Source: Prostheceraeus crozeri (taxonomy: Eukaryota > Platyhelminthes > Polycladida > Euryleptidae). Taken from it: a stretch of DNA of 64,000 bases. The stretch spans positions 124,001 to 188,000 of the forward strand of contig CAJQUW010006864.1 in NCBI GenBank assembly GCA_907163375.1, given 5' to 3'. Below, piece after piece: positions 29,661-57,000 of the stretch; the stretch's first letter is position 1; each line of letters begins with the position of its first letter. Below the pieces are notes generated by a model, which was given only the letters and a program-made list of their open reading frames with translations, searched no databases and was not told the DNA's origin. The position numbers and the translations under genes were made by a program.

Positions 29661-30861
29661 CAAAATTTCTGCATCAAGTGGTTTCCGAAAATGAGTTATC
29701 GCAACTTCCTGTTTGTTATTACTTAAGAAACGGTATCTTGATGCGGAAGTGCAGACCTCCACATGTCCCGTCTGATAATGAATGTTTCACAAAACACCAA
29801 ATAGTTCTCTCCAGTCGCTATCATCATGAAGTTCTGAAACTGGCTCATGAAATTCCGTTAGCCGGTCATCTGGGGGTAAATAAAAGGCATCATAAGATTT
29901 CAAATCCTTTTTACTGGCCGAGAATGAGAACCGACATTTCAAAATTTTGCAAGTCTTGCCAACTAGTTGGTAAGCCGAATCAAACTATTCCAAAAGCTCC
30001 TATAAAACCAATTCCTGTGATAGTTGAAGCATTTAGTTACGTATTGATTGACTGTCTCGGACCTCTTCCTCGTACTAAGTCTGGCAATAAGTATTTACTT
30101 ACACTAATGTGTTTATCCTCACGTTTTCCGGAGGCAATGCCATTGAGAAATATAAAGGCAAAAACAATAATCAAAGCCCTGATTAAAATTTCTACAACTT
30201 TTGTACTCCCAATTTCATTTCAATCTGATCCAGGCTAGAATTTCATGTCGGGAATTTTTCAGCAAGTAATGCATGAGTTGAATATTTCACAGCATACATC
30301 TTCAGCCTATCATCCGCAAAGTCAAGGTGCTTTGGAAAGATGGCATCAGACGTTAAAAAACATGCTGAGAACATATTGTCATGATCCTGATAAGAATTGG
30401 GATGAGGGTGTTCCGTTTTTGCTCTTTACGCCAGGGAATCAATACAGGATTCGGTAGGATTCAGTCCATCTGACCTTGTCTTTGGACATACTGTTAGAGG
30501 ACCTATAAAAGTTGTTAAGGAAAAACTTTTGTCAGATGAATCTATTCCAAAAACATCTTTGTTGCAGTATGTAGTTGATTTTCGCTCGAAGTTATCGGAG
30601 GTTTGCGAGTTAGCTAGAAGTAATTTGAAATCGAATCAAGATGTTATGAAAAGTAGATATTATTCAGAGTCGACTGATCGAGATTCCAAAGTAGGACAGA
30701 AAGTCCTCGCTTCATTACCCACTTATGGAAGTCCTTTACAATGTCGATATGTTGGTCCGTATGTCATTAACAAAAAGTTGAGTGATCTGAATTATGTCAT
30801 TAGTACGCCTGATAGGCGCAAGAAAAATCAACTGTGTCATGTCAATATGCTGAAATTGTAA
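29588..30861 (+). pseudogene. Integrase of the Gmr1-like element (IN before RT)
   Basis: An HHCC zinc-binding region (H..LAGHLG..CKSCQLVG) is followed by the catalytic core: LIDCLGPLP (first Asp), FQSDPG (second Asp) and HPQSQGALERWHQ (Glu). A GPY/F-type C-terminal module (CRYVGPYVINKKLSD) ends near 30,861. Breaks are a TAG at 30,236-30,238 directly after the second Asp motif and a frameshift near 30,440. The right inverted arm copies this gene only from 30,109 onward, i.e. from within the core. Confidence 0.88.
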
Positions 30862-31059
30862 GTTGATAGAAACGTTGATATCACCAATAATGTGGTTGAT
30901 ATCGCTAATAATAACACTTTGCGATCAGTGAGTGTAAATGTTCTCAGTATGAATGATAAAGGTTAAGCGATTCATAACACCTGCGATGATTTCGATAGAT
31001 TACATGAATTTTGTGCTAAATTTTCAAACACAGACACTTTACAGAATCAGGAAACGAAG

Positions 31060-31416
31060 TTGTCACACTTATCAGCAGATGAAAGAGTCGAGATATCTAC
31101 ATTGATTTCTGCATATTCCGAACTATTTTCGGATGGGCCATCAAGAACTGATCCAGTGTTTCATGATGTTGATGTCGCTGATAGTTTACCTATCAAGAAA
31201 CACCCGTACAGGCTCAATCCAATAAAAGAGCAATATTTGCGAAAAGAAATCGAGAATCTTCTCAAAAATGGATTCATTGAGCACAGCAACTGGAGCTCTC
31301 CATGTATACTAGTTCCTAAAACGGATGGGACTTACCGCATGTGTACAGATTACAGAAAAGTCAACATCACAAAAACTGATTCATATCCAATTCAACATAT
31401 GGACACTTGTAAATGA
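31060..31416 (+). pseudogene. Truncated reverse transcriptase of the Gmr1-like element
   Basis: The frame holds LPIKKHPYRLNPIK, NGFIEHSNWSSP, ILVPKTDGTYRMC and DYRKVNITKTDSYPI, i.e. the first RT motifs. It ends at HMDTCK just before where the next RT blocks should begin. YxDD, RNase H and everything else are absent; a ~75-bp spacer leads to the purine tract. Confidence 0.88.
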
Positions 31417-31506
31417 AAGACAATGTAATTGCCGATTGTTTGTTGTGTCTGTCATGATTTTGTATTTTGCTATTGCAAATTTTTCCCTTTTATGGGGAAA
31501 GGGTAT

Positions 31507-31771
31507 AAGTCATGTGCAAGCAATCTATGCCTCTATGTTATCTATGTTATTTTAAGCTTGTCTTGTCATGATGACTAATGGATGTGCATGTAGACCTACA
31601 TTTATAAATTCTATGTTATTCACGTAATGGCTTGGAGATTTGAATTTTATACTTTTTACATCAGATACTTTTATACTTAATTGATCACAGAGTTTTTAAG
31701 TAACTTAATTAAATATTTCTTTATGTTGTCGTGTGTTTGTTTTCCTTATAAATACATATTTACACGTAACA
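31507..31771 (+). repeat. 3' LTR of the Gmr1-like element (shortened)
   Basis: Matches the ends of 27,320-27,729 but lacks the ~145-bp middle. An inverted, near-identical copy lies at 55,338-55,602. Confidence 0.8.
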
Positions 31772-32370
31772 GTTTGACACAACTTCGATATTATATCTAC
31801 GGTGGATTCTCTGAAATTCCTTGGTGTTCACTTTTCAGCTGATCTTACTTGGAACTATTATATTGATAAGACTGTTCCCAAATTTTGTTTCAGAAGATTT
31901 TTCATTCTTAGAAATCTAAAGTGAGCTAAATATATTCAGCTACAGACTTTTCATTGCTATGAATCTTTTGTAAGATCTGTTTTGATTTATGCAATAACTT
32001 GTTTCTGCAATCTTTCCAAGTATTTGCTGTGCAAGCTTGCAAGAGTTGAACGATTTGCAGCAGGATATTTTTCTAGAATTGAATTCTGTCCATTGGAATC
32101 ATTTATTGACAAGTTGTGCAAGAAATTGTTCAGGGAAATGATGAAACATGATGATCATCCTTTGCGTGTGATGTTTGAGACGAAGCGCCCAACACTGAGA
32201 GATACTAGATGTATTAGAGCTCCTCGCATCTCCACAGAATGTTTTAGTAAATCTTTTACACGCTATGGAAGATAACTGCCACTGCCTTTTATGTTCTTAA
32301 TTGTCTTTTATCAAATTGTAATGCATTCACCGCATATTGTGAATCAATAAAGATGATCTATTTATTTCTA
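31772..32370 (+). mobile_element. Second LINE, 3' piece (RT thumb region and tail)
   Basis: Continues the LINE interrupted at 27,319. STVDSLKFLGVHFSADLTW (~31,800-31,855) is the conserved LGV-x-W block after the RT core, followed by FVRSVLIYAITCF and RVERFAAGYF, the family thumb region, to the stop at 32,273-32,275. A polyadenylation-like AATAAAGATG tail lies at ~32,345. It carries one in-frame TGA near 31,920. Mirrored at 54,739-55,337. Confidence 0.85.
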
Positions 32371-32887
32371 TTCAAGAAAGTATCGTAAAAATCTGTTTAA
32401 TATGTGATTATAAATCAAATAATGCAAACTGTTTTTTATCTTTGTATATCTTTTACTGGTGATAGAGTAAGCATGAATCGTAGCTTTTGACAAAAAGCTG
32501 TATTGTAACTTGTGATTTCTATTTACGATGTGCATCTCTCAATTCTGTCGAGAATGTTGCGCTGTAAACGTGTTGATCAACGTCAGTTAATCGCATTGTT
32601 ATCTAAATGTCAAGCGATCACGATGCTCTTGAATTTGTTCATGCCCTCACTTATATAGATTCCTGAATAATGCTATTCATGCAGTGAGTATAGTGATTTC
32701 GAAGTTATTGAGCTGATGACGAATCTACAATTACAAATACGCACATATAGTTGCTATGTCGTGTTCAACAACACTACATTTGGTAATATAAAGAAGTTAA
32801 GGAAAGAAGTTTATCGCTGAAGGTGGCAGACCATAGTATAGGTGCAATAGTATCATAGAATTAAATAATTGTATATGGCTTATGAGC
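32371..32887. other. Non-coding flank between LINE tail and Polinton end
   Basis: AT-rich, no gene. It is mirrored in the right arm (54,222-54,738). Confidence 0.5.
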
Positions 32888-33170
32888 AGTAAGTAAATCT
32901 ACACCACTGGACCGCGCAAGATGGCCGCCGTCGACCGACCTCCCCCCTCCTGTCAGACGAGGACGTCGGCCCTAGTCCGCCACCGGGTTGCTTCGAGTCC
33001 GACTCCCCCCTCTGGACCGACGGCGTAGCGAGAGGTTGTTCGTGGTGCGCTCTCCAGGTTGGCGTGGTGTGCCGGCCAGGTTGGAAGGGTGGAATTTCGG
33101 TGCGAGACCCCTCCCATCGTGTTTCTCGTCAAAAGTTGGGTTAACAAAATTTTTCCACCCCCCCCCCCGG

Positions 33171-33870
33171 CAGCGATCTTCTAATTTTGGTTCTAGTGGA
33201 TGGATTTTGTCTTATAGATACTCATTTGAAAGAGGAGAAAAAACTGCTCAATGACATTTTTGTTGCGAGTCAATCGGATCAGCCGCTCAAAAGTTAGAGC
33301 TGTTACAAGATTTCACGTCGGACCTCACCTGAAAAAATCCTAAGTGTCAGAGTGACTTTGTGTGGCAAAATTTTTTTTCCAAAGTGTCGAATTTCGACCT
33401 GGGACCCTGACCAAAGTTTGTTTCATCAAATTTCACCGACCCCCCCTCGGTAGCGATCTTCTAATTTTGGTTCTAGTGGATGGATTTTGTCTTATAGATA
33501 CTCATTTGAAAGAGGAGAAAAAACTGCTCAATGACATTTTTATTGCGAGTCAATCGGATCAGCCGTTCAAAAGTTAGAGCTGTTACAAGATTTCACGTCG
33601 GACCTCAGATTTGACGAAAAAATCCTAAGTGTCAGAGTGACTTTGTATGGACAAAATTTTGAAAATTTTTCCAAAGTGTCGCATTTCGACCTGGGACCTT
33701 TACCAAAACATTTTTCATCAAATTTCTCCGAACGGTAGGGGGGAGGGGGGGTCAGTGAAAAGTGATGAAAAAAGTTTTGGTAAGGGTCCCAGATTGAAAT
33801 TCGGAAGTTTAAAATTTTTCAAAATTTTCAACACACTGGAGCTCCCACACTTAGGAATTTTTTCACTTGT
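33171..33870. repeat. Sub-terminal repeat module, left end (direct and inverted copies)
   Basis: A ~280-bp module begins GCGATCTTCTAATTTTGGTT after a C run and contains AGATACTCATTTGAAAGAGG and CCTAAGTGTCAGAGTGACTT. It occurs at 33,171 and again at ~33,450. A diverged copy in the opposite orientation (GGGTCAGTGAAAAGTGATG ... CACACTTAGGAATTTTTTC) follows at ~33,745-33,866, forming a large hairpin. No coding value; the overlapping open frames are repeat by-products. Confidence 0.8.
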
Positions 33871-37359: not shown

Positions 37360-40300
37360 ATGTTAAGTTAAAGATTTCCTCTCTCATCTCCCTCAAACGT
37401 GTGGCTAATAGCATCTTCCTCAATTTCAGGCATCTACTTCATCACCAAAGCCCTCCCTTCTCGAGGAAAGTTTAGAGTTGTTGAGTGAAGGTAGGTTGTA
37501 ACAATACACTGAGACTTAAACAGAGATGATAGAATGATTTCTCTTTCAGGTGATGTTAGTTCCAGCTCAGGACTCTCGCGACAAGGCAACGAGTGGGAAT
37601 GTGCTGACTGCGGACATATTTTTACAAGGAAGCACAGTCTCCTTCGACACATCAAACAACGTGTGTGTCAACGCAAAGCGTCATCAATCTCCTGAGGTGA
37701 AGTTGATTCTGACGATGACATCTCCTTTCCTTGTGATTTGTGCCCTCTTTCTTTCGATAGCCCCTTTCAGCGATCTTCGCACAGACTTCAACACACGCAT
37801 GCAAATGATCACTACACCAACGGTACCTCTACAATCTCCCTCATTAACGTTTCCCATAGTCATTTAGTACGCGACTACTGCATGGAGTCCAATACTCAAA
37901 TAGTAGATTTTCCTGAGTGGCTCCTTCAAAATTCTAACATTATCGAAGCGCTCTTCAACAATTTAGACAATTTTAGAATGAAGGCGCTCATCTACCTCAA
38001 ACTAAAATATATTAAAATAGATTTTCAAACGGGTCAAGTGACGGAGAATACAGTTTCATGTTCCTTCCTCTTCCGCAACCGAAGTTGTAGACTGCGAGTC
38101 TTGGCTAAATTTCCATATTCAATGTTTAAAATCAAATGTAGATAAATTCAATCAACGGGAAAGCGCTCTCATTTTTGATGGTGTGGACTCAGCCATATTC
38201 AAAATTTCCCTATTAGAAAGTCATGCAGCTCGAGGCACATTTAAACTACCAAAAACGTTGTATAATAAGAAAGCTGTCATCAATGTCGATTGTAAATCGC
38301 AGTGTTTCAAATATGCCGTCCTATCCATTCTCCACTATAATGATATCAACGCTCATCGAGATCGCACCTATAGCTATAGACAGTGGGAGGATGAACTAGA
38401 CTTTGAAGGTTGTGATAGTGACAACATGAAAATCAAAGATGTAGAAACGTTCGAGAAACATAATCAGATGAAAATTGTAGTTCACGTGTAGGAGAAGGGG
38501 TTGAAGGGTGTCCGCTATAATTCACGTTCAACTTGTTATGAACGTGTAGTTAACCTCTTATTAGTAAAACAAGATGATAGCGAGGAATGGCACTACTGTG
38601 GTATTCCGAAAATCTCTCGCTTGTATACACACTTGGGACACTCTAAAAGTGGTGAACATTTTGTATGCGACCGCTGCATCCGCTCCTTTTGGAGTAAACA
38701 TAAATTTCTAAGTCATTATGAATGGTGCAAGCGGGGTAAATTACAAATGGAACGCATGCCCAAAGACAAAATCTTTTCACATAGAATGGCGATGAACTAA
38801 GTCCTCTTCGTGTCATTTACGCAGACATAGAATGCTATATCGATGATATCATCCACAAGCCAGCAGCCATATCCTGCTATGAAGTATGGCATGACCATTT
38901 CCAAAATAGAAAAAATAAAATGCACGTCTGGCAAGGTGAGGATTGTATTTACCAATTCCTACAATTCCTCGAACAGGCTGTAAAATTTCAACAAAAGTAT
39001 GATGGTGAACTCTATCGCAGATCATTGCATATGACAGCAGATGATCAAGCAAAATTTGATAGTTGCAACGTTTGCCTCAAATGTAGTAAAACATTTGATG
39101 ATGATAAGATTAAGAAAGTGCGCGACCATGATCACATCACTGGTAAATTTAGAAACGCACTCTGTTCAAAATGCAATTTTTCACTTAGGATGAAACGGCG
39201 TACATTACCCGTCATTTTCCATAATTTCAAGGGCTACGACAGCCATATGATAATAAAAGGAGGTTTAGGTCAAATGAAAGAGTGGAAGTTTAATGTAATA
39301 GCACAAACGAGAGAGAAGTTTATGGCCATGACAGCAAAAGTGCCTGTCGATAAAACTAAAGAAAATAAGACGGTCTATTTTGATATAAAATTTTTAGATT
39401 CCTACCAATTTATGACTGCATCACTGGCCTCTCTCGTACAAAATCTAAAGTCTCTTCCACTAACACAAAATCTTAAGAAACAATATCCAAATCTAACCGA
39501 TGAAGTCATCACACGGAAAGGAGTCTTTCCATATGCATATTTTGATGCGATTAGTAAACTCGGTGAGACTTCTCTTCCACCCATAGATAAATTTAAAAAT
39601 GATTTGACCGGCGCAGAATGTAAGACCGAAGATTATGATCATGCACAAGATGCCATACATTTGGCAAATATAGGATTGCCTATCTTAAGTTAGATGTATT
39701 TTGCTGGCTGATGTATTTCAGGAGTTTCGACGAGTGGCATTAGAAGAAGATAATTTAGATCCCGTCCACTTTGTCAGTCTGCCAGCCATGTCCTTTAAAT
39801 CAGCCTTTAAAATGACTGGTGAGACCATTCATCTCTTACAAGACCCGGAGATGTATAACATATTTGAGCGCGGAATACGCGGTGGTCTCACATTTGTAAA
39901 TAAACATCATATAAAATCTGAAACAGTAGGTGATGATCATATCCACCTAAAGTACTATGACCAAAATAATTTATATGGCAGTTCACTGTCTAAACCACTA
40001 CCTCATTCCGAGTTTAGTTGGTTAAAACAAGATGAGCTTGAGTATTACTCCAACCCTTCAAACATACTGAAGATTCCAGATGAAGGTGATTGGGGATATT
40101 ATTTTGAAGTGGATTTGATTTATCCAAATAGCATTAAAAATAAAACTGCTGATTTCCAACTCGCACCTGAATCTGGTGAAGTGACTGAAGATATGTTTTC
40201 ACCATTCATGTCACAATTTCATGATAACTTAAGAGAGTGTGGACAGCCAAGGTATAAACCATGCCGCAAACTTTTACTCACCCAATATGATAAGAAAAAT

Positions 40301-41310
40301 TATCTCGTGCACTTCTGCATGCTAAAATTCTATTTAGAAATGGGCATGCTTCTAAAGTCAGTTCACCGCATCATCAAATTTAGACAGAAAGCCTTCCTCA
40401 AACCCTACATTGATAGTAACAGCCAGAAACGTACACTAGCCCAAAATAATTTTGAAAAGGATTTTTTTATAAGTATAAGAATAATAGTCTACTTGGTAAG
40501 ACGATGGAGGATGTTAGAAAACGTGTAAACTATAAACTAGTCATTGATGATCAAAAATATCACAAATTGACCTCATCACCTCTTTTCATTGATAGAGACA
40601 TTATCGATGAGGACCTTGTAGGTGTTAAAATGATAAAATCTGAAGTTGAGTTGTGCAAGCCCATCTATATTGGCCAAGCTGTACTAGATTACTCTAAGCT
40701 TTAAATGTACCAACTCTTTTATAAAATACTAAAACCATGTCTTCTCGTAAAAGAGGTTCGTTTGTTGGGTGGTGATACAGATAGTTTCTTCTTAGGTATT
40801 ACCACTCAAAAAGATTTAAATTTTAATGAAGTAGCTAAGTCATTAGAAAAATATTTCGACACATCTAACTACAATCCCACTCATCCACTCTATTCCATAC
40901 AGAATAAAGCCAAACTTGGTTGTTTTAAGGATGAAACAGCAGGAAAGGAAATAGATGAAATGATTCTCCTCCGTCCTAAAATGTGTTCCATGAAATTAAA
41001 AGAATGTGCAGATAGTATTAAGCGTGCTAAAGGTATATCAAAATCCATTGTTCACAAAATGAAACATCGCTCCTATAAGAAGTCCTATAAAAATAAAACT
41101 ATAACGTTTGTCAATATGAAAATCTTAAAATCTCAAGTTCATACTGAGAAAACGCACACGTTCAAGAAACGAGCGCTTTCAGCATGGGAGGATAAGAGGT
41201 GTTGGATAGGACATAACACATCTCTTCCACATGGACATCCTGACACAAACATACCTCCACCCAAAAGAATAAAACTCACGCTACCACATTCAGGAGACGT
41301 CTTAGCATAA
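37360..41310 (+). pseudogene. Polinton DNA polymerase B (protein-primed), multiply broken
   Basis: Role in the family: copies the element by protein-primed DNA synthesis. Proposed ATG at 37,360, a 67-bp intron (37,363-37,429; donor now TTAAGT, acceptor TTTCAG), an exon 37,430-37,490, a 59-bp intron, and the main exon from 37,550. The main exon has two C2H2 fingers near its start (C..C at 37,600; PCDLC at 37,730), the 3'-5' exonuclease motifs VIYADIE (~38,815) and HNFKGYDSH (~39,225), a Cys/His cluster with RDHDHITGK between them, and polymerase motif A YYDQNNLYG (~39,955), motif B NNSLLGK (~40,480) and motif C GDTDS (~40,773). Stops: 37,693, 38,489, 40,702. Frameshifts near 38,050, 38,800, 39,695, 40,460. 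Confidence 0.92.
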
Positions 41311-44295: not shown

Positions 44296-44664
44296 TTGCA
44301 TAACATCATGAAGACTTGGATTTTGGACTCTCTACAATATATCAGAGTTGATCGTGATGGAAACGTACATTTCAAAAATTCTCATGGTCATACATCAAGA
44401 GGTATTACATTAACATGGCGACAATTTGTCAACCTCAATGATATCATGAGGGATTTGAAATATTTTGAAACATTAAGATTCATCTCCTTGGGTGATCAAG
44501 TTTGGCTTCAACGTTGCAACAATGAAATTCAAATCTGCCATTCTCATTCCGCAAACTGTTTCTCATTTCGCAAATACAATTGGGAGAAGTATAGAAGATA
44601 CATACATCGCTCCATCATAACATTTATTCGTCGTGAGTTCATCGCCCTACTATGCAAATCTTAA
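44296..44664 (+). CDS. PC4-like protein 1
   Basis: Intact; the first Met at 44,296 or a better one at 44,308 (MKTWILDSLQ). It contains two half-repeats of a beta-strand block followed by a helix. The first, QYIRVDRDGNVHFKN..GITLTWRQFVNLNDIM, resembles the PC4/SUB1 domain (R-Y-V-x-V..GKKGISL-x-x-x-W-x-L). The second is ISLGDQVWL..FSFRKYNWEKYRRYI. PC4 binds single-stranded DNA and acts as a coactivator with TBP/TFIIA at Pol II promoters. It is a paralogue of the next gene, in line with the TBP-like gene. The fold call is by eye; other small DNA-binding folds are possible. Confidence 0.5.
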   Translation: MHNIMKTWILDSLQYIRVDRDGNVHFKNSHGHTSRGITLTWRQFVNLNDIMRDLKYFETLRFISLGDQVWLQRCNNEIQICHSHSANCFSFRKYNWEKYRRYIHRSIITFIRREFIALLCKS

Positions 44665-44686: not shown

Positions 44687-45337
44687 ATGAGTTGGAAATT
44701 AGATTCCCTACAACGTATTGAAACGGATCATGATCGAAACGTCTATTTCAAAGATTCAACTGGAAATGTGAGAAGAGAGTTTGCTTTATCTTATCGTCAT
44801 TTTCAATCTCTACATCATATCATGAAGGATTTGAAATACTTCTATATGAAAAGACATTCACGTATTGGAAATCGCATATGGTTGCGCGTCAACAAACGGC
44901 GAATTCAACTCTATCATTCCCAACTCCATACTAACTTCACATTTCATCAAGGTAGTTGGGAAAAGTATAAAAGGAAGGTACATAGCTCAATTTACTCATT
45001 CTTTCATCATGAAGCGCCATCGCTACACCATCGTCAACATTCTCCGTCGCTTCAGACTCTACACCAAAATCGATCTCACAACATTACACCAACACCTTCC
45101 AAACAGCAAGTATTACCCGGGCCGACCTCAAATGTTAGTGGTGAAGATGAACAATTCACGGAATCTTCAACTCTTCCCAAATGGGACTGTACAGATTCTC
45201 GGCGCCCTTTCTCATTCATCGGCGCAGTCAATGCGCTTAGAGCTACAGAGACTACTACGTCGGATATGGAAGAGGGAGAGGTGTGTGATGTCGAATCTGA
45301 CTGTGGACAATATGGTGATCTCTACTCAATTGAGTGA
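44687..45337 (+). CDS. PC4-like protein 2 (long C-terminal extension overlaps the TBP-like gene)
   Basis: Begins 22 bp after gene 1. Residues 1-110 align with it throughout: WKLDSLQRIETDHDRNVYF, LSYRHFQSLHHIMKDLKYF, RIGNRIWLRVN and WEKYKRKVHSSI. Beyond residue ~112 the frame continues for ~105 residues of His/Ser/Thr-rich and then acidic sequence (SDMEEGEVCD). It lies over the TBP-like gene in another frame. Gene 1 has no such tail, so the tail may be accidental or a real overprinted extension. Confidence 0.5.
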   Translation: MSWKLDSLQRIETDHDRNVYFKDSTGNVRREFALSYRHFQSLHHIMKDLKYFYMKRHSRIGNRIWLRVNKRRIQLYHSQLHTNFTFHQGSWEKYKRKVHSSIYSFFHHEAPSLHHRQHSPSLQTLHQNRSHNITPTPSKQQVLPGPTSNVSGEDEQFTESSTLPKWDCTDSRRPFSFIGAVNALRATETTTSDMEEGEVCDVESDCGQYGDLYSIE

Positions 45338-45554
45338 AAGTGTATCATTTTTGAAGATTCGTACCAGCAGTTACAATTTGTGTTATGAACCCGAACTTTT
45401 TCCTGCAGCTCTCATTAGTTGTTGGTTACCTGTGCATGTTGCAATCTTTCATAATAGTAAAGTGATCATTACTGGACTAAAATCTCATGTACAAACAAAT
45501 ATGATCCTAGACTATCTCATCGAGTATGTACGTACCCAGCGGATTGTAAAATAA
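45009..45554 (+). CDS. TATA-binding-protein-like protein (complete two-repeat core)
   Basis: ATG at 45,009, 181 residues, the length of a bare TBP core. Repeat 1 (~residues 7-85) has NILRRFRLYTKIDL, YYPGRP, VVKM, LQLFPNGTVQILGA and a helix LELQRLL. Repeat 2 (~residues 95-178) has LTVDNMVIS, SYNLCYEPELFPAALI, VAIFHNSKVIITGLK and a closing helix. The YEPELFP signature is that of TBP. Of the four DNA-kinking Phe positions, three appear kept (LQLF, ELFP, VAIF); the first is replaced in RPQM. No stop or frameshift. AATAAA overlaps the stop. Expected role: binding TATA-type promoters, probably the element's own. Alternative start further upstream: none needed. Confidence 0.85.
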   Translation: MKRHRYTIVNILRRFRLYTKIDLTTLHQHLPNSKYYPGRPQMLVVKMNNSRNLQLFPNGTVQILGALSHSSAQSMRLELQRLLRRIWKRERCVMSNLTVDNMVISTQLSESVSFLKIRTSSYNLCYEPELFPAALISCWLPVHVAIFHNSKVIITGLKSHVQTNMILDYLIEYVRTQRIVK

Positions 45555-45592
45555 AAAACAATTTTTCCAACATGTTTTATTTCAAATCATGA
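45548..45592. terminator. Converging polyadenylation signals
   Basis: AATAAA on the plus strand at the TBP-like stop (~45,552) and TTTATTTCA (AATAAA on the minus strand) at ~45,575 for the protease transcript lie about 25 bp apart. Confidence 0.6.
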
Positions 45593-46038
45593 TAGAACTT
45601 ACAAATCATTTTTTCATTAGAGGATGGATTACATGAAAAGTTTTGAATAACAGATACAAATCGAGATACATGTAAACGTTTTAAGATGAAGTACAGTACA
45701 AAAGCACCACACGTTGATGAAAGTGGATGTTGTAGCATGCGTTCATTTCGCTGATATTGACGCGTATGTTTTCTCAACCACTGCTGTGTTGGTATATTTG
45801 GAGGTTGAGCAAGAGAGTCAAATAGTTCACCACGTCGGTCTTCTCCAATAAAGATCGCTTTTCAATGCTCACCGCCTAAATTCTGCGAATGAGTGTTTAG
45901 CACAATAAAGATGGGATAGTGATTTACTGCAGGTGGTAAGGTATCGAGCGAATAGACATTATCGAAAGCTTTCAACGTCGCTTCATCTGCATTACGCTGC
46001 ACTTTAGTCTTAATATCGTCAGCAGTCAACCAACTAAT
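45577..46038 (-). pseudogene. Polinton adenain-type cysteine protease, broken
   Basis: Processes virion precursors in the adenovirus-type maturation scheme. The catalytic order is seen: GGEH (His, ~45,866), ELFDSLA (Asp, ~45,820) and LSSTCGAF (Cys, ~45,700) in a LYFILKRL helix. The residue after the catalytic His, Trp in the family, is a TGA stop at 45,862-45,864. The expected ATG is ATT (46,036-46,038), overlapping the capsid stop. Both changes are single-base. Otherwise open and well conserved, so decay looks recent. Confidence 0.85.
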
Positions 46039-47308
46039 TAACGATTATATTGAAGAATCACGTCACGATACTTTGTAATTTCAATGTTTGAATCGAAGAC
46101 TGCATAAATTAATACATTGATCGTCTCAGGTAGTGTTCTTTTGAACGTCAAATCCAAACGAATATTATGAGGCACGTTCGCTTGACGATAGGGTGCACTA
46201 ATATCGCTGTCAGCAGTCAAATCAAATGCATAAATAGTATATCCACTCTTAAACTCTTTCATAGTCAGTCCGTTGGTGTCATCCGTATTGTAAAAGCCAA
46301 AAACATCCATAAAATCAACATAACTGCGCATAAATTGATCCGAAGCAAAATCTGGTTTGTAGGGTGGACCAGGATGACTCACACCATTTACACGTAAAGC
46401 AATTTCACTTAACTGATTGTGTTTAAAATTGAAAGGATTCTTCTTTATATTACCATTAAATGCATCATTTTCAACCATTGCCACCATGAGGAGCTTCGGT
46501 GCTTCCGATGGAAAGAGGCCATCTTTCATGAAACTCTTTTGATCTTTCGGAATTGTAAAGGTGAGAAGCTTTGTATGCTGAACGGGGTAAATGGCATTTT
46601 GACGGTTAAGACCTTCAGCATGTCCTCTAATGACACTTGGATTCGGTACTACTCGACGAATGTAAAGTGCAATATCCTCCACATGAATTCTAAAATTGTC
46701 AACTTTACCAAATGCATTCAGCGCAAATTCAGGCTTATTCAATGTCAGCTTGAGTCGCATGCTGGTATTACAGAGTAAAAACTTTGACTGTCTAAAGAAG
46801 TCTAAATTCAGCGGACCATATAGCTGACATACTTTACTATCTTTAATCATAGCAGATCGCTTTACAAAGCCACTGTTTGTTTCAGCATCAAATTTTCCTG
46901 CTTCATCTCTGTACCATCCCATGGCTTCCATATGACTTTTTTGTGCTGCTGGATAAAACTGTGATACATGATTGAAATATGATTTATAGGGATAATCGTT
47001 AGAGAAATCGTTATCTCTCCAATCGTTAGAGAAACATCGCGAAGTAATGTAGTCAATGGTAAATTGTTCAGTCCAACTTTATGTGTATCGTCAATAGCAG
47101 TTCCATCTGCTTGCTGAATTCTAAACCTCAAATCAAGCATCGCATAACTCAAATCTATGTAGTCATCACTACCACCAGGAATAACAAATTCAATGGGGCC
47201 AGCATTCTCAGCTGTTCGAGGATGATAATCTACAATACTTGAAATAAGAATATCTGTCTGTATGGCTTGTTGATCAAACAAACAAAAACCGGAAGTTTTA
47301 CACTCCAT
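46038..47308 (-). pseudogene. Polinton major capsid protein (double jelly-roll), one frameshift
   Basis: Starts at ATG 47,308 and would be ~423 residues. N-terminal part: YHPRTAENAGPIEFVIPG, DDYIDLSYAMLDLRFRI, VGLNNLPLTTLLRDVSL. C-terminal part: LVKR-like FVKRSAM, LNLDFFRQSKFLL, FTIPKDQKSF, ENDAFNGNIKKNPFNFKH, GYTIYAFDLT and VLIYAVFDSNIEITK. These match the Polinton capsid family. The frame changes between 46,860 and 46,932, next to a run of T residues. A 13-bp direct repeat (TTTCTCTAACGAT) at ~47,000-47,040 makes a short insertion-like stretch. Confidence 0.9.
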
Positions 47309-47310
47309 GA

Positions 47311-47763
47311 TTAGAAGTTATGGCAGCGTCGTCGTTTAGCGCCTGATGAATGATTAGAGCCTCTGCGACGTTTGCGTGAATGCCTTTTGACTGAAGATCG
47401 TACCTTACCAGTTCCGCGATGTTTCCTTCCTTTAGTCATTCGTTTAGGCGATTTCTTTCCTTGAGTAACACCAGCAAAGGTCTGCTTCAATGTTTTTAAA
47501 CCGCGTTCCTTCTCACGATTCAACAAACTGCTCTTAAAACTTCTACCTCAGGAAAGATCACTAGCAACATCACCAGCAAAGCCAACGGCATTACTTAAAA
47601 CATTTCGTTTTAAAGATCTTCCGACATTGGATATGAGAGGTGCTACAACAGATTTCAGTGCACCAAGTATGCTACCTCCACGTTGGCGGCGAGCGCCGAT
47701 GTAAATTTGTCCTCCACCACTTACATAGGAGGGTCGTGAATAAAATGAGGCAGTTGGATTCAT
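47311..47763 (-). pseudogene. Small basic virion-type protein, one in-frame stop
   Basis: ATG 47,763. The N-terminal part has GGGQIYIGARRQRGGS followed by ILGALKSVVAPLI, a Gly-rich then amphipathic stretch like capsid-cement or lytic peptides. A TGA lies at 47,548-47,550, in phase with the continuation, which ends in a Lys/Arg-rich tail (KHRGTGKV, KRHSRKRRRG) suited to DNA condensation. Ends 3 bp before the capsid ATG. About 150 residues. Comparable in layout to adenovirus minor core/pVI-pX proteins; homology is not shown. Confidence 0.6.
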
Positions 47764-47804: not shown

Positions 47805-48900
47805 TCACTGTCGATCACTTAGATGAAAGATGTCGGCACGACGCATCCAAGAGTTCATACTTGAAGGATAACCAGTCCATTTAACATGACACCATTCTTC
47901 ACCTTGCCGTTTTTTACATCGAATGATTTTCTCTACCAAATATGTTTCACTTTCAGTGACTACCTCAATCTTATCGCGGTAAAAGCTATCCTCAATTTCT
48001 TCATTATCGTAATCTTTCAACTTGTAGGTGGTGGGAGAGTCTTTTTGATTAATCCTTGATACTGTAAATACCTCCTCTGTCCAATTCGGAAGGTACCCTT
48101 TAGCAAAAACACTCTTCACTTTTGAGATACGAACTTTATCACCAATTTTCACATCACTTTTCACATGAGTGCATTTACGTTGGAATGATTCGTGCACTTT
48201 ATCTACATTGTCAGCATTTACACCTACTGGTCTGAGTCCAATAGAACGATGGATAGAGTGATTGTAGGCATGGAGTGTATCTTGTAGAACCTTTGTCCAA
48301 TTTTGTGTCAAGTTGGCAGTAAAATGTCGCCACAAGCGATTTCTTAATGTGCGATTAAAACGTTCAACGAGTGCAGCTTTATAAGCACTCTTTACACTAA
48401 ACAACTCAATGTCATGCCTCTCAAATAATCTTCTCACATGCTGATTTTCAAACTCTTTTCCTTGATCACTCTGAATTCTTTTTGGAATGCGACCTTCTCG
48501 AAAAATTGTTTGGAATGCTTTTGCTACTCCCTTCTTTAGTTTTTAAAGGTTGAGCCCACGCATAACGAGAGAAAATATCAATGACGGTTAAAATAAAATT
48601 ATTGCCCGAGTTATGTTTTGAAATGGAGGCGACATCACACAAATCTGCTTGCCACTGTTCATCAATGTCATGAACAATATAATGGCGGGTACGGTACTTC
48701 TTTTTCGCTTGTTTGTGGAGTGTATAGGTAGCCTGACCCTTTAACCATCGTTTCACTTGTGATTGTGGAAGACCACTCGCTTTTGATAATTTCTTGATAG
48801 ATGCAAATCCTGCCGGATGTTTTACATCATAATAGATTGACTTCAAACGCTCAGTCGATAACGACTGACTCTTTTTCCTCCTTCTCATCTTTTTGTTTTC
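47805..48900 (-). pseudogene. Polinton integrase with chromodomain-like end, one frameshift
   Basis: Inserts the element into host DNA (DDE family, retroviral type). Likely start MRRRKKSQSL near 48,885. A helix-turn-helix-like N-terminal region (FASIKKLSKASGLPQSQVKRWL), then the core: WQADLCDV (Asp), SDQGKEF (Asp, in the second frame) and AALVERFNRTL (Glu). The C-terminal part has GDKVRISK and a short chromodomain-like end, YLVEKIIRCKKR..EWCHVKWTGYP..NSW, at ~47,905-47,835. The frame breaks near 48,535. Confidence 0.9.
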
Positions 48901-49066
48901 TTCCCTTTCTACATTTACAACAACTACAGCATTTAGCTTTAGCGGTTTTGCGATCGTGTTCACATTGCTTAGGAGTTTCATTGTGAGAGCTGGCGCAGCA
49001 AGTGCAAGTGACAACGACATTCACCTCTGGCGGCTCATTACATGGCAAGCAACACATCTGCTTCAT
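48851..49066 (-). CDS. Small Cys-rich ORF overlapping the integrase start
   Basis: 71 residues, 12 Cys arranged as MCCLPC, CTCCASS and CCSCCKCRK, then a KDEKEEKE acidic/basic tail. The Cys spacing suggests metal binding. It overlaps the integrase 5' region in another frame. Starts just after the 49,068 stop of the upstream gene. Function unknown; could be a remnant of a zinc domain. Confidence 0.4.
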   Translation of the reverse strand: MKQMCCLPCNEPPEVNVVVTCTCCASSHNETPKQCEHDRKTAKAKCCSCCKCRKGRKQKDEKEEKESVVID

Positions 49067-49067
49067 A

Positions 49068-49756
49068 TTAATAGTCTGAGAACATGTATTTCTTGGGAGG
49101 AACTGTTTTACGTTTTCCTTTTACTAGTTTTAGTGGTGGCGTAGATCTACGTCGAGTTCTTCCTCTTGTTTGCTTAGTGAGTGTGGGAGGGGATGTAGCA
49201 GGTGACGTCTTAAACCAATTTGTTGGCATTTTCATCGTCTGAAGCATTGGAGCAGTAGCCACTGTTGAATCAAGTTCTTTCAATGTCTCATTATTCAAAG
49301 CAAATTTTGGTACATTATGCTTTTTCAATAGTTTAAGAAAGTATGTCCAGCCAGGTGGAACATAGTCCTGACGGCGCTTTCTACGTGTCGCATACTGAAT
49401 CAAGTCTTCATAACGTGAAGCATCAATCACTTTATTTTCATCTGTAATGATTTCTCCTCTATCATTTACATTGAGAAGGGTTCAATACTGTTGAAAAGAG
49501 ATATGGCATGTGCACGAGATGCTAAAGGTGTAGCAGTCGACACAGAGTCACGCATCTTATTCTTCAAATTTTTCAATTGTTCAACAGTTTCCGATTGTAA
49601 TAATACATCACGATGTGGATATTTGATGTGAACATTTTGCTGATATATTTCTTTCCTATACATTTGATTTGCAAGAGGTTGCTTTACTTGCTGCATGGAA
49701 GTCAATTGTACATATTCATCCTGAGGAATAACAATCATGCGAGAATAAGAACTCAT
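49068..49756 (-). pseudogene. Conserved Polinton protein of unknown function, one frameshift
   Basis: ATG 49,756: MSSYSRMIVIPQDEYVQLTS, KQPLANQM, LLQSETVEQLKNLKNKMRD, RAHAISLFNSIEPF. The frame shifts near 49,470 into NDRGEII, RYEDLIQYATR, PPGWTYFLKLLKKHNVPKF, then a Thr/Pro/Lys-rich tail ending KKYMFSDY. This pattern recurs in Polinton-encoded uncharacterised proteins between ATPase and integrase. Start overlaps the ATPase stop by 4 bp. Confidence 0.65.
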
Positions 49757-50370
49757 AGTTTGTAGATAATCATGGGAGTTTTCAAAATATCACTTCGAAA
49801 TCTAAATTCTTCCGGACACTCTTGCGTAAAGTCAATGAATAAGTAACCGTGTGGTTTTTCAGTAGCTGCTTGAAAAATTTCAATTAAGGCTTTTGATCCT
49901 CTTGGTGCAACTTGTCGCGCTAAAATTTCAAATTGACTTTTATCTCGCGGATTCTTGGAAATAGCATAATAGTGTGTATTCAGGTTTCGTGTACGAGCTT
50001 CTTTTCCATCAGGAAACAAATTTTGTGTGATATAGATGATAAAGCACCTTTTATGATGTGCTGCGCGAGTGAACATATCTGTAACATCTTTGGAATTCTT
50101 ACATTCTTTTAATAGATCATCCAATACAACAACAACATTAGACTGAAGTTTATCCACTGGAATAATTCCTTCATGTCGAATAAAGTTGCGACTTTGCAAT
50201 TCCTGAAACAGCGACGGTTGATAAATACCATAACACCAAATCACTCGATTGATAGGTTCCTTAAACAACTCCCTTCTTTTATCCAATAAATTCAGCGTGA
50301 AAACAGTTTTACCTGCATGAGATGGACCTGATACAGTCAGAACTTTATCACATTGAAGTCTGAAATCCAT
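49753..50370 (-). CDS. Polinton genome-packaging ATPase
   Basis: FtsK/HerA-type packaging ATPase, which would drive DNA into the capsid. I start at the Met of MDFRLQCDKV (50,370) because the frame upstream has no ATG and overlaps the previous gene; 205 residues. Walker A is GPSHAGKT at ~residues 14-21, Walker B VVVVLDDLL at ~80, and a QNLF sensor-like element at ~117. It ends YLFIDFTQ...MIIYKL. No stop or frameshift: one of the few hallmark genes still whole. Confidence 0.92.
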   Translation of the reverse strand: MDFRLQCDKVLTVSGPSHAGKTVFTLNLLDKRRELFKEPINRVIWCYGIYQPSLFQELQSRNFIRHEGIIPVDKLQSNVVVVLDDLLKECKNSKDVTDMFTRAAHHKRCFIIYITQNLFPDGKEARTRNLNTHYYAISKNPRDKSQFEILARQVAPRGSKALIEIFQAATEKPHGYLFIDFTQECPEEFRFRSDILKTPMIIYKL

Positions 50371-50401
50371 TATAATACTTTCAGATTCAACATTTGCATA
50401 A

Positions 50402-50760
50402 TTAACGTCTAGAGCCAAAGATATTACCCAATACGTTGCCCACGATAGGAGCTAGCATCGGTAGTAACGCTGGAAGGAAACCACCCTTTTGTGTTAGAGT
50501 TTCCCTCTTTCTTTGAAGGGTGACTTTAGGATTGGAGATGAAACGCAATTTCGTAGCATATCGCTTAAGTAACTTTCGTTGTTTTGGTGCTAATTTCTTC
50601 GTCCTCAACTTTCTCACATGAGAAATAATTTCACGAATGATTTTATCGTTAGCATGTAGTATAGCATTGTATCGCTGATTTGCTTTCATTCGTCGGAGAG
50701 CTTGAATGGCTGAAGAAAACTTTGAAGACTTTTGACTTACTTTTCGTCATTTTACGTTTC
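50402..50760 (-). pseudogene. Small basic protein with hydrophobic Gly-rich end
   Basis: The open part starts at 50,689 (MKANQRYNAIL) and ends QKGGFLPALLPMLAPIVGN..GSRR at 50,402, an amphipathic, probably membrane-active end. Upstream in-frame residues (AIQALRRM) and an ATG at ~50,766 (MAKRKMTKS) suggest the true start was further up, with one frameshift between. Adenovirus pVI-like in style; homology not shown. Confidence 0.55.
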
Positions 50761-53519: not shown

Positions 53520-53938
53520 CATCTAAACGAAGACAGATATGAACAAGCCGTTTCTTTCACTGAATTTGTCTCACTCTTAGCTTTCAAACGAGCTATTGCT
53601 CGACTTTCTACGATCACTAGAACCGAAATTGGAAGATCGGTGCCGGGGGGGGGGGGTCGGTGAAATTTGATGAAAAATGTTTTGGTAAAGGTCCCAGGTC
53701 GAAATGCGACACTTTGGAAAAATTTTCAAAATTTTGTCCAAACAAAGTCACTCTGACACTTAGGATTTTTTCGTCAAATCTGAGGTCTGACCTAAAATCT
53801 TGTAACAGCTCTAACTTTTGAACGGCTGATCCGATTGACTCGCAACAAAAATGTCATTGAGCAATTTTTTCTCCTCTTTCAAATGAGTATCTATAAGACA
53901 AAATCCATCCACTAGAACCAAAATTAGAAGATCGCTGC
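53520..53938. repeat. Sub-terminal repeat module, right end
   Basis: One full ~295-bp module between CTAGAACCGAAATTGGAAGA (53,617) and CTAGAACCAAAATTAGAAGA (53,912), each followed by a long G run, plus a diverged partial copy before it (from ~53,540). Related to the left-end module at 33,171-33,740. Confidence 0.8.
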
Positions 53939-56900
53939 CGGGGGGGGGGGGTGGAAAAATTTTGTTAACCCAACTTTTGACGAGAAACACGATGGGAGGG
54001 GTCTCGCACCGAAATTCCACCCTTCCAACCTGGCCGGCACACCACGCCAACCTGGAGAGCGCACCACGAACAACCTCTCGCTACGCCGTCGGTCCAGAGG
54101 GGGGAGTCGGACTCGAAGCAACCCGGTGGCGGACTAGGGCCGACGTCCTCGTCTGACAGGAGGGGGGAGGTCGGTCGACGGCGGCCATCTTGCGCGGTCC
54201 AGTGGTGTAGATTTACTTACTGCTCATAAGCCATATACAATTATTTAATTCTATGATACTATTGCACCTATACTATGGTCTGCCACCTTCAGCGATAAAC
54301 TTCTTTCCTTAACTTCTTTATATTACCAAATGTAGTGTTGTTGAACACGACATAGCAACTATATGTGCGTATTTGTAATTGTAGATTCGTCATCAGCTCA
54401 ATAACTTCGAAATCACTATACTCACTGCATGAATAGCATTATTCAGGAATCTATATAAGTGAGGGCATGAACAAATTCAAGAGCATCGTGATCGCTTGAC
54501 ATTTAGATAACAATGCGATTAACTGACGTTGATCAACACGTTTACAGCGCAACATTCTCGACAGAATTGAGAGATGCACATCGTAAATAGAAATCACAAG
54601 TTACAATACAGCTCTTTGTCAAAAGCTACGATTCATGCTTACTCTATCACCAGTAAAAGATATACAAAGATAAAAAACAGTTTGCATTATTTGATTTATA
54701 ATCACATATTAAACAGATTTTTACGATACTTTCTTGAATAGAAATAAATAGATCATCTTTATTGATTCACAATATGCGGTGAATGCATTACAATTTGATA
54801 AAAGACAATTAAGAACATAAAAGGCAGTGGCAGTTATCTTCCATAGCGTGTAAAAGATTTACTAAAACATTCTGTGGAGATGCGAGGAGCTCTAATACAT
54901 CTAGTATCTCTCAGTGTTGGGCGCTTCGTCTCAAACATCACACGCAAAGGATGATCATCATGTTTCATCATTTCCCTGAACAATTTCTTGCACAACTTGT
55001 CAATAAATGATTCCAATGGACAGAATTCAATTCTAGAAAAATATCCTGCTGCAAATCGTTCAACTCTTGCAAGCTTGCACAGCAAATACTTGGAAAGATT
55101 GCAGAAACAAGTTATTGCATAAATCAAAACAGATCTTACAAAAGATTCATAGCAATGAAAAGTCTGTAGCTGAATACATTTAGCTCACTTTAGATTTCTA
55201 AGAATGAAAAATCTTCTGAAACAAAATTTGGGAACAGTCTTATCAATATAATAGTTCCAAGTAAGATCAGCTGAAAAGTGAACACCAAGGAATTTCAGAG
55301 AATCCACCGTAGATATAATATCGAAGTTGTGTCAAACTGTTACGTGTAAATATGTATTTATAAGGAAAACAAACACACGACAACATAAAGAAATATTTAA
55401 TTAAGTTACTTAAAAACTCTGTGATCAATTAAGTATAAAAGTATCTGATGTAAAAAGTATAAAATTCAAATCTCCAAGCCATTACGTGAATAACATAGAA
55501 TTTATAAATGTAGGTCTACATGCACATCCATTAGTCATCATGACAAGACAAGCTTAAAATAACATAGATAACATAGAGGCATAGATTGCTTGCACATGAC
55601 TTATACCCTTTCCCCATAAAAGGGAAAAATTTGCAATAGCAAAACACAAAATCATGACAGACACAACAAACAATCGGCAATTACATTGTCTTTCATTTAC
55701 AAGTGTCCATATGTTGAATTGGATATGAATCAGTTTTTGTGATGTTGACTTTTCTGTAATCTGTACACATGCGGTAAGTCCCATCCGTTTTAGGAACTAG
55801 TATACATGGAGAGCTCCAGTTGCTGTGCTCAATGAATCCATTTTTGAGAAGATTCTCGATTTCTTTTCGCAAATATTGCTCTTTTATTGGATTGAGCCTG
55901 TACGGGTGTTTCTTGATAGGTAAACTATCAGCGACATCAACATCATGAAACACTGGATCAGTTCTTGATGGCCCATCCGAAAATAGTTCGGAATATGCAG
56001 AAATCAATGTAGATATCTCGACTCTTTCATCTGCTGATAAGTGTGACAACTTCGTTTCCTGATTCTGTAAAGTGTCTGTGTTTGAAAATTTAGCACAAAA
56101 TTCATGTAATCTATCGAAATCATCGCAGGTGTTATGAATCGCTTAACCTTTATCATTCATACTGAGAACATTTACACTCACTGATCGCAAAGTGTTATTA
56201 TTAGCGATATCAACCACATTATTGGTGATATCAACGTTTCTATCAACTTACAATTTCAGCATATTGACATGACACAGTTGATTTTTCTTGCGCCTATCAG
56301 GCGTACTAATGACATAATTCAGATCACTCAACTTTTTGTTAATGACATACGGACCAACATATCGACATTGTAAAGGACTTCCATAAGTGGGTAATGAAGC
56401 GAGGACTTTCTGTCCTACTTTGGAATCTCGATCAGTCGACTCTGAATAATATCTACTTTTCATAACATCTTGATTCGATTTCAAATTACTTCTAGCTAAC
56501 TCGCAAACCTCCGATAACTTCGAGCGAAAATCAACTACATACTGCAACAAAGATGTTTTTGGAATAGATTCATCTGACAAAAGTTTTTCCTTAACAACTT
56601 TTATAGGTCCTCTAACAGTATGTCCAAAGACAAGGTCAGATGGACTGAATCCTACCGAATCCTGTATTGATTCCCTGGCGTAAAGAGCAAAAACGGAACA
56701 CCCTCATCCCAATTCTTATCAGGATCATGACAATATGTTCTCAGCATGTTTTTTAACGTCTGATGCCATCTTTCCAAAGCACCTTGACTTTGCGGATGAT
56801 AGGCTGAAGATGTATGCTGTGAAATATTCAACTCATGCATTACTTGCTGAAAAATTCCCGACATGAAATTCTAGCCTGGATCAGATTGAAATGAAATTGG

Positions 56901-57000
56901 GAGTACAAAAGTTGTAGAAATTTTAATCAGGGCTTTGATTATTGTTTTTGCCTTTATATTTCTCAATGGCATTGCCTCCGGAAAACGTGAGGATAAACAC
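53680..57000 (-). repeat. Right arm of the giant inverted repeat
   Basis: Mirror of 30,109 to ~33,430 with very few differences (e.g. a C/T change at ~31,465 against 55,644, and one base in a homopolymer). It carries copies of the LINE 3' end (54,739-55,337), the 3' LTR (55,338-55,602), the RT start (55,693-56,049) and the integrase end (56,248-56,999). The repeat stops sharply at 57,000 inside the integrase core; sequence beyond is unrelated to the left side. Confidence 0.9.
55338..56999 (-). pseudogene. Inverted partial copy of the Gmr1-like element
   Basis: Copies 30,110-31,771: integrase from the middle of its catalytic core, GPY-type end, truncated RT and 3' LTR. It carries the same TAG after the second integrase Asp motif and the same internal deletion, so it derives from the left copy (or the reverse) and not from an independent insertion. 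Confidence 0.9.

Follow-up and report, generated by a model that had tools for sequence, protein, structure and literature searches.

The element and its TBP gene

The window, a stretch of 64,000 nucleotides from the polyclad flatworm Prostheceraeus crozeri, carries an element with a gene for a two-lobed TATA-binding protein (TBP) of 181 amino acids on the + strand (45009..45554). The initial annotation placed the gene between PolB and the virion genes. It lies between two + strand ORFs upstream, ORF1 (44308..44664) and ORF2 (44687..45337), and a protease and a capsid gene on the − strand downstream. The protease ORF (45577..45861), named from the initial annotation and the gene order, encodes 94 amino acids here and 155 in most of the 150 copies listed from the genome. 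The capsid gene (46038..47317), also named in the initial annotation, is split over two frames. Neither has a Pfam match, and the capsid has no PDB match. Further along the − strand are an integrase with a chromodomain, again split over two frames (47805..49020), and a packaging-ATPase-like ORF (49753..50451). Pfam scores the integrase with Chromo at 28.2 bits against a cut-off of 25.1 and with rve at 22 bits, below its cut-off of 32.6; the IS481 and IS3 transposase models also match it, with E-values of 5e-10 and 1e-7. The ATPase-like ORF has a weak Pox_A32 match of 16.1 bits, below the cut-off of 22.8. A short − strand ORF at 50405-50746 matches the adenovirus mu/PX core protein weakly, with E 0.0008 and 19.7 bits where the cut-off is 25. 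On the + strand, pieces of PolB occupy several frames (38492..41310); Pfam places Endonuclease_7 above its cut-off and DNA_pol_B_2 at 22 bits, below 25.8, and the pieces contain what we take to be PolB motifs.

Terminal inverted repeats of ~290 bp lie near 33.1–33.7 kb (33131..33731) and 53.6–54.0 kb (53615..53977), which suggests an element length of ~20.8 kb. The right end lies 7.44 kb from the protease in this copy; in two others, the distances are 7.38 and 7.37 kb. The element was classed as a Polinton because of its integrase with a chromodomain, the PolB pieces, the gene order and the end repeats. Outside the end repeats there is a perfect inverted repeat of 3,060 bp (window positions 30109-33168 and 53941-57000), for which a duplication, homogenised ends or an assembly artefact are candidate explanations. 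In its right arm, ORFs at 55693-56142 and 56248-56703 look, by eye, like fragments of a Gypsy-type retrotransposon. No 6-bp target site duplication was found at the ends of these outer arms, the ends of the element itself being placed approximately.

The 181-residue ORF matches the Pfam TBP model (PF00352) in two stretches at 73.1 bits, against a cut-off of 22.9, which bears out the earlier description of a complete ORF of TBP-core length with both repeats. A 61-member family profile searched against the PDB matched 35 distinct sequences at E ≤ 0.001 (best E 1.5e-24), all of which are TBPs or TBP fusions. The gene is homologous to TBP and shares its fold: in structure alignments, the two-lobe saddle spans the whole length of the element protein, at 20–26% identity to cellular TBPs. 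Its closest matches are archaeal TBPs. The NCBIfam archaeal TBP models score 69.1 bits at best, against a cut-off of 181, and by these scores the protein is related to the archaeal models and is not an equivalog.

Copies, selection and the overlapping ORF2

A search of the animal’s own 2.05-Gb genome with the TBP gave 11,878 candidates, the best 150 of which are full length, 98–100% identical and stop-free, in a selection by TBP similarity that favours whole copies. With the Pfam TBP model, the best 150 of 10,983 candidates comprise 146 element rows and four host rows, the latter presumably the host TBP and a TRF2/TBPL1-like gene; a stop falls inside the matched stretch in 8 of the 146. The true number of element copies is probably several hundred or more. 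Among the 150 protease matches listed, 149 are copies other than that of the window, at 99–100% identity; tied matches take up all the listed places ahead of any contig numbered above C10000, with the exception of C9845. At one locus (G000:C5587:286378-292527), three whole TBP copies occur within ~6 kb, one of them on the strand opposite to the other two, and a rearranged cluster, a small derived unit and an assembly fault are the candidate explanations.

The open frames of 48 loci fall into lineages A (that of the window), A′, B, C and D. Protease and capsid adjoin TBP in 20 of 21 lineage-A loci of 3.2–3.5 kb, in all three C loci and in the single D locus. In lineage B (9/9 loci of 3.2–3.5 kb), the gene after TBP is PolB, on the opposite strand, in place of protease and capsid; the loci with this other gene order are L014, L016, L022, L026-L028, L030, L031 and L036. 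The TBP gene is an element gene and not a stray fragment, and the claim that a Polinton-type element carries a complete TBP-like gene holds for many copies and several lineages, in which its neighbourhood is fixed. Metagenomes hold 61 relatives of the element TBP at E ≤ 10. A search with the family profile retrieved 1058 proteins at E ≤ 1e-5, a count in which the best 120 all have a TBP domain and the remainder may include cellular TBPs.

Selection was assessed on copies chosen through the protease, regardless of TBP. Of 30 such loci, five were dropped for lack of the full ORF2–TBP region, two of which (L081 and L085) are short only at the alignment edge; this left 25 with the window’s copy included. 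TBP is whole in 20 of the 25 and ORF2 is whole in 20 of the 25. Removal of five further gapped loci left 20 ungapped copies, in which TBP has a pN/pS of 0.44 and the part of ORF2 outside the overlap one of 0.25. Copies picked by TBP itself, a choice that biases pN low, gave 0.37 for 20 copies of lineage A and 0.40 for 8 of lineage B, with a stop in 3/20 and 3/8, respectively. Between A and A′, dN/dS is ~0.24 in the overlap and 0.30 after it. These low pN/pS and dN/dS values show that TBP was under purifying selection during the spread of the lineages. The gene had been described as intact while those around it are broken. This stands for the window’s copy, in which PolB, integrase and capsid are split and the protease is short, but TBP is not uniquely spared, as the equal count of whole ORF2 copies makes clear.

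ORF2 encodes 216 amino acids and, over its tail, shares 329 nt (45009-45337) with the TBP gene, read in a different frame. ORF1 is its paralogue (~41–43% identical) and is without the overlapping tail. The nearest known systems for ORF2 are PUR-alpha, PC4 and Whirly, to which its first part bears a weak likeness; the Pfam PC4, PUR and Whirly families match none of eight ORF2 family members, sequence comparison with solved structures gave no credible match (best E 0.24), and PHROGs and NCBIfam returned nothing useful for ORF2 or the capsid. ORF2 matches occur in 9/9 B, 2/3 C and 0/1 D loci. Two JGI metagenome proteins (P0063 and P0110) comprise a near-identical lineage-A ORF2 (99%) and a protein that resembles the TBP of lineage B, and their presence suggests that the source animal or a close relative was included in a sequenced sample.

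It is improbable that the overlap is an accident in which the ORF2 frame is merely open by chance, although several observations would fit such an origin. In recent copies, pN/pS of the ORF2 frame within the overlap is 2.44 (protease-picked) and 1.05 and 1.51 (TBP-picked), the overlap does not evolve more slowly in lineage B, and the D copy has stops in the ORF2 frame there. Against this, synonymous shuffling of TBP codons (20,000 shuffles for each of six related sequences) left the frame open as far as seen at frequencies of only 1e-4 to 2.25e-3. In five metagenome proteins, the match runs over the full 216 residues and takes in the tail, and A and A′ are 89.6% identical in the overlap compared with 83.5% and 82.2% in its flanks.

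DNA-facing and TFIIB-facing residues and putative promoter motifs

Residues were counted in 139 family proteins aligned to the host TBP, with our own assignment of columns to the named contacts and with the positions of the four DNA-kinking phenylalanines as we take them to be. The window’s copy has three of these four, as had been noted, the first of the N-lobe being Pro; the full set is not strictly defining for a TBP. The change extends across the family, with Pro at this N-lobe position in 133 of 136 proteins, while the C-lobe kinking Phe is present in 138 of the 139. Because of this loss, DNA binding by the element TBP could be weak. The L5.1 Phe is retained in both lobes in 139/139. The C-lobe Asn is equally invariant (139/139) and the N-lobe Asn nearly so, at 115 of the 116 rows that align in its column. 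L, M or F occupies the N-lobe Thr position, and Ala the C-lobe Gly position, in all 139 proteins. In the C-lobe stirrup (YEPELFP), the two glutamates that contact TFIIB are E in 139/139 and 135/139 (D in the other 4), and the Leu after them is L in 126 of the 139. Judged by these residues, the element TBP appears to retain the surface that recruits the host transcription machinery. The initial annotation missed three features: the conserved gene that overlaps TBP, the loss of one kinking Phe across the family, and the preservation of the residues for TFIIB contact.

The available text of a study of large DNA virus TBPs (PMC7221094) describes the contact of the stirrup glutamates with TFIIB. 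According to the same text, viral TBPs retain the L5.1 Phe and mostly lack the TFIIB contacts, the N-lobe signatures for host regulators are mostly gone as well, and almost all TBP-bearing viruses encode their own TFIIB, poxviruses excepted. The element thus shares with these viruses a TBP in a dsDNA virus-like genome and the L5.1 Phe, and differs in its retained contacts and in the lack of a TFIIB match: among the ORFs of at least 90 amino acids between 36.6 and 53.7 kb, scanned as 37 stop-to-stop entries (at most 36 distinct, since two were entered twice with different starts), none has a TFIIB-type Pfam match.

A TATA box, TATAAAAG (44966..44973, +), is located 43 nt before the TBP ATG, and an initiator-like TCATT (44996..45000, +) has its A at 44998, at a distance of 32 nt downstream from the initial T of the TATA box. 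The distance from TATAAAAG to the ATG is 43 nt in A, A′ and three B copies and 46–47 nt in three C copies; the TATA is absent before the TBP gene of the D copy. The spacing from TATA to the A of TCATT is 32 nt in the A, A′ and B copies and in two of the three C copies (7/8 overall); the remaining C copy has 33 nt. The upstream extension is of sufficient length in 25 metagenome family proteins, and 14 of these have Ile-Lys, as TATAAAA would encode, 10–18 codons before a Met; 5,000 trials with shuffled extensions gave a mean of 1.4 and a maximum of 6. As both motifs lie within ORF2 codons, ORF2 coding may explain their conservation.

It had been suggested that the protein could steer Pol II to TATA promoters of the element. 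A scan for TATAWAW 20–120 nt before the first four ATGs of stop-to-stop ORFs of at least 90 amino acids (36.5–53.3 kb; the true starts of broken genes are uncertain) did not find such promoters throughout the element. The motif occurred only at the TBP gene and at internal ATGs of the broken capsid gene.

Origin and possible role of the element TBP

Polintons are widely viewed as being near the root of many eukaryotic DNA viruses. In a maximum likelihood tree of 45 rows, 32 family rows lie on one side of a branch with 100/100 support. On the other side are the host TBP, part of the host TRF2, a microsporidian TBP, two archaeal TBPs and eight viral TBPs from IMG/VR, from all of which the family is set apart by long branches; several outside rows are themselves long, and the tree describes the separation of the family and not its point of attachment. 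Of the two origins put forward initially, capture of a host TBP or TRF and descent from an ancient viral TBP, the viral one is the likelier. The host genome does contain both a TBP and a TRF2 from which a recent capture could have been drawn, yet both fall outside the 100/100 clade, and the host TBP matches human TBP at E 2.7e-87 while the element TBP is closest to archaeal TBPs. Recent capture was rejected on the tree and is extremely improbable. An ancient capture from some eukaryote or archaeon is possible. IMG/VR was scanned with the capsid, the ATPase and two alignments of the TBP family, and these scans returned pattern matches and no confirmed free relative. In phage records, the sole TBP match was that of a haloarchaeal virus, present in two records at 23.7% identity and E 0.04, and a PolB piece had no match. 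Two IMG/VR contigs of ~174 kb (L052 and L054) encode a divergent TBP with a C-terminal extension, in open frames of 244 and 243 residues; that of L052 is outside the Polinton family in the tree.

It is proposed that host TBP and Pol II would first transcribe the element TBP gene from its own TATA/initiator promoter. The element TBP would then bend element promoters with its changed N-lobe and recruit host TFIIB through the retained C-lobe stirrup, so that host Pol II might be brought to element genes without a consensus TATA. ORF2 and ORF1 may act as cofactors at this point by binding single-stranded DNA. That the gene is a true two-lobe TBP, long part of one Polinton group, and that it acts by this recruitment are together given a probability of roughly 0.55. 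A fuller version is held more tentatively, at somewhat short of even odds. Here, an old viral TBP lineage, typical of a large Polinton group, would work, with altered DNA specificity, in a hybrid preinitiation complex. The other members of that complex would be TFIIB and Pol II of the host, together with a PUR/PC4-like cofactor encoded out of frame over the TBP gene.

The same residues could serve host shut-off, with the element TBP competing with host TBP for TFIIB or TATA boxes and lowering host transcription; kept TFIIB contacts beside a changed N-lobe are what an interfering TBP might show. This is unlikely, as the constant position next to virion or replication genes across the lineages seen and the long-term constraint on the DNA-facing Phe and Asn suggest a positive use of DNA binding. 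Alternatively, the TBP fold might have a task other than transcription start, such as DNA bending during replication, packaging or integration. PolB adjoins TBP in lineage B, the N-lobe kinking Phe is lost and most element genes are without a TATA, all of which would suit a role of this kind, but it would leave the conservation of the TFIIB-contact glutamates without a reason and is decidedly unlikely.

For the recruitment model, the nearest parallel is the viral TBP of beta- and gamma-herpesviruses, which, in the available parts of its descriptions, directs the Pol II of the host to late promoters of the virus that carry a TATT motif, and belongs to a six-protein complex. By description, this protein is the likely functional analogue of the element TBP. 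Cellular TBPs of archaea and eukaryotes share with the element TBP the two-lobe saddle, the L5.1 Phe of both lobes, the C-lobe Asn and the TFIIB-contact glutamates; the element TBP differs in its low identity, the N-lobe Pro, the replaced N-lobe Thr and C-lobe Gly, and its separate clade. TBP genes are also described in integrated virus-like elements of the eukaryote Cymbomonas (PMC10675990, available part). These are likened by description; they are tied to mirusviruses and, by that paper’s account, are without PolB, packaging ATPase and double jelly-roll capsid genes. A mirusvirus TBP is also reported (PMC10132985).

The statement that TBP is not a standard Polinton gene agrees with its absence from the core genes named in the available parts of PMC3671162 and PMC4028283. 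A full-text literature search, whose scope did not extend to the adintovirus description (PMC8502044), found no report of TBP in Polintons, nor was one found in the available parts of those two papers or of PMC10675990, PMC12220804, PMC11464507, PMC10120064 and PMC11071308; the available text of PMC7221094 has 0 occurrences of Polintons. A Polinton-borne TBP is likely to be new.

The element TBP is a natural TBP with a changed DNA-binding lobe. To our knowledge, little is known about the transcription of Polintons, and the question becomes directly testable with a dedicated TBP in which the contact to host TFIIB seems to be preserved. Caution is also advised in annotation, as a TBP match in an animal assembly or a metagenome can be an element gene; one source labels such proteins TFIID or TBP outright.
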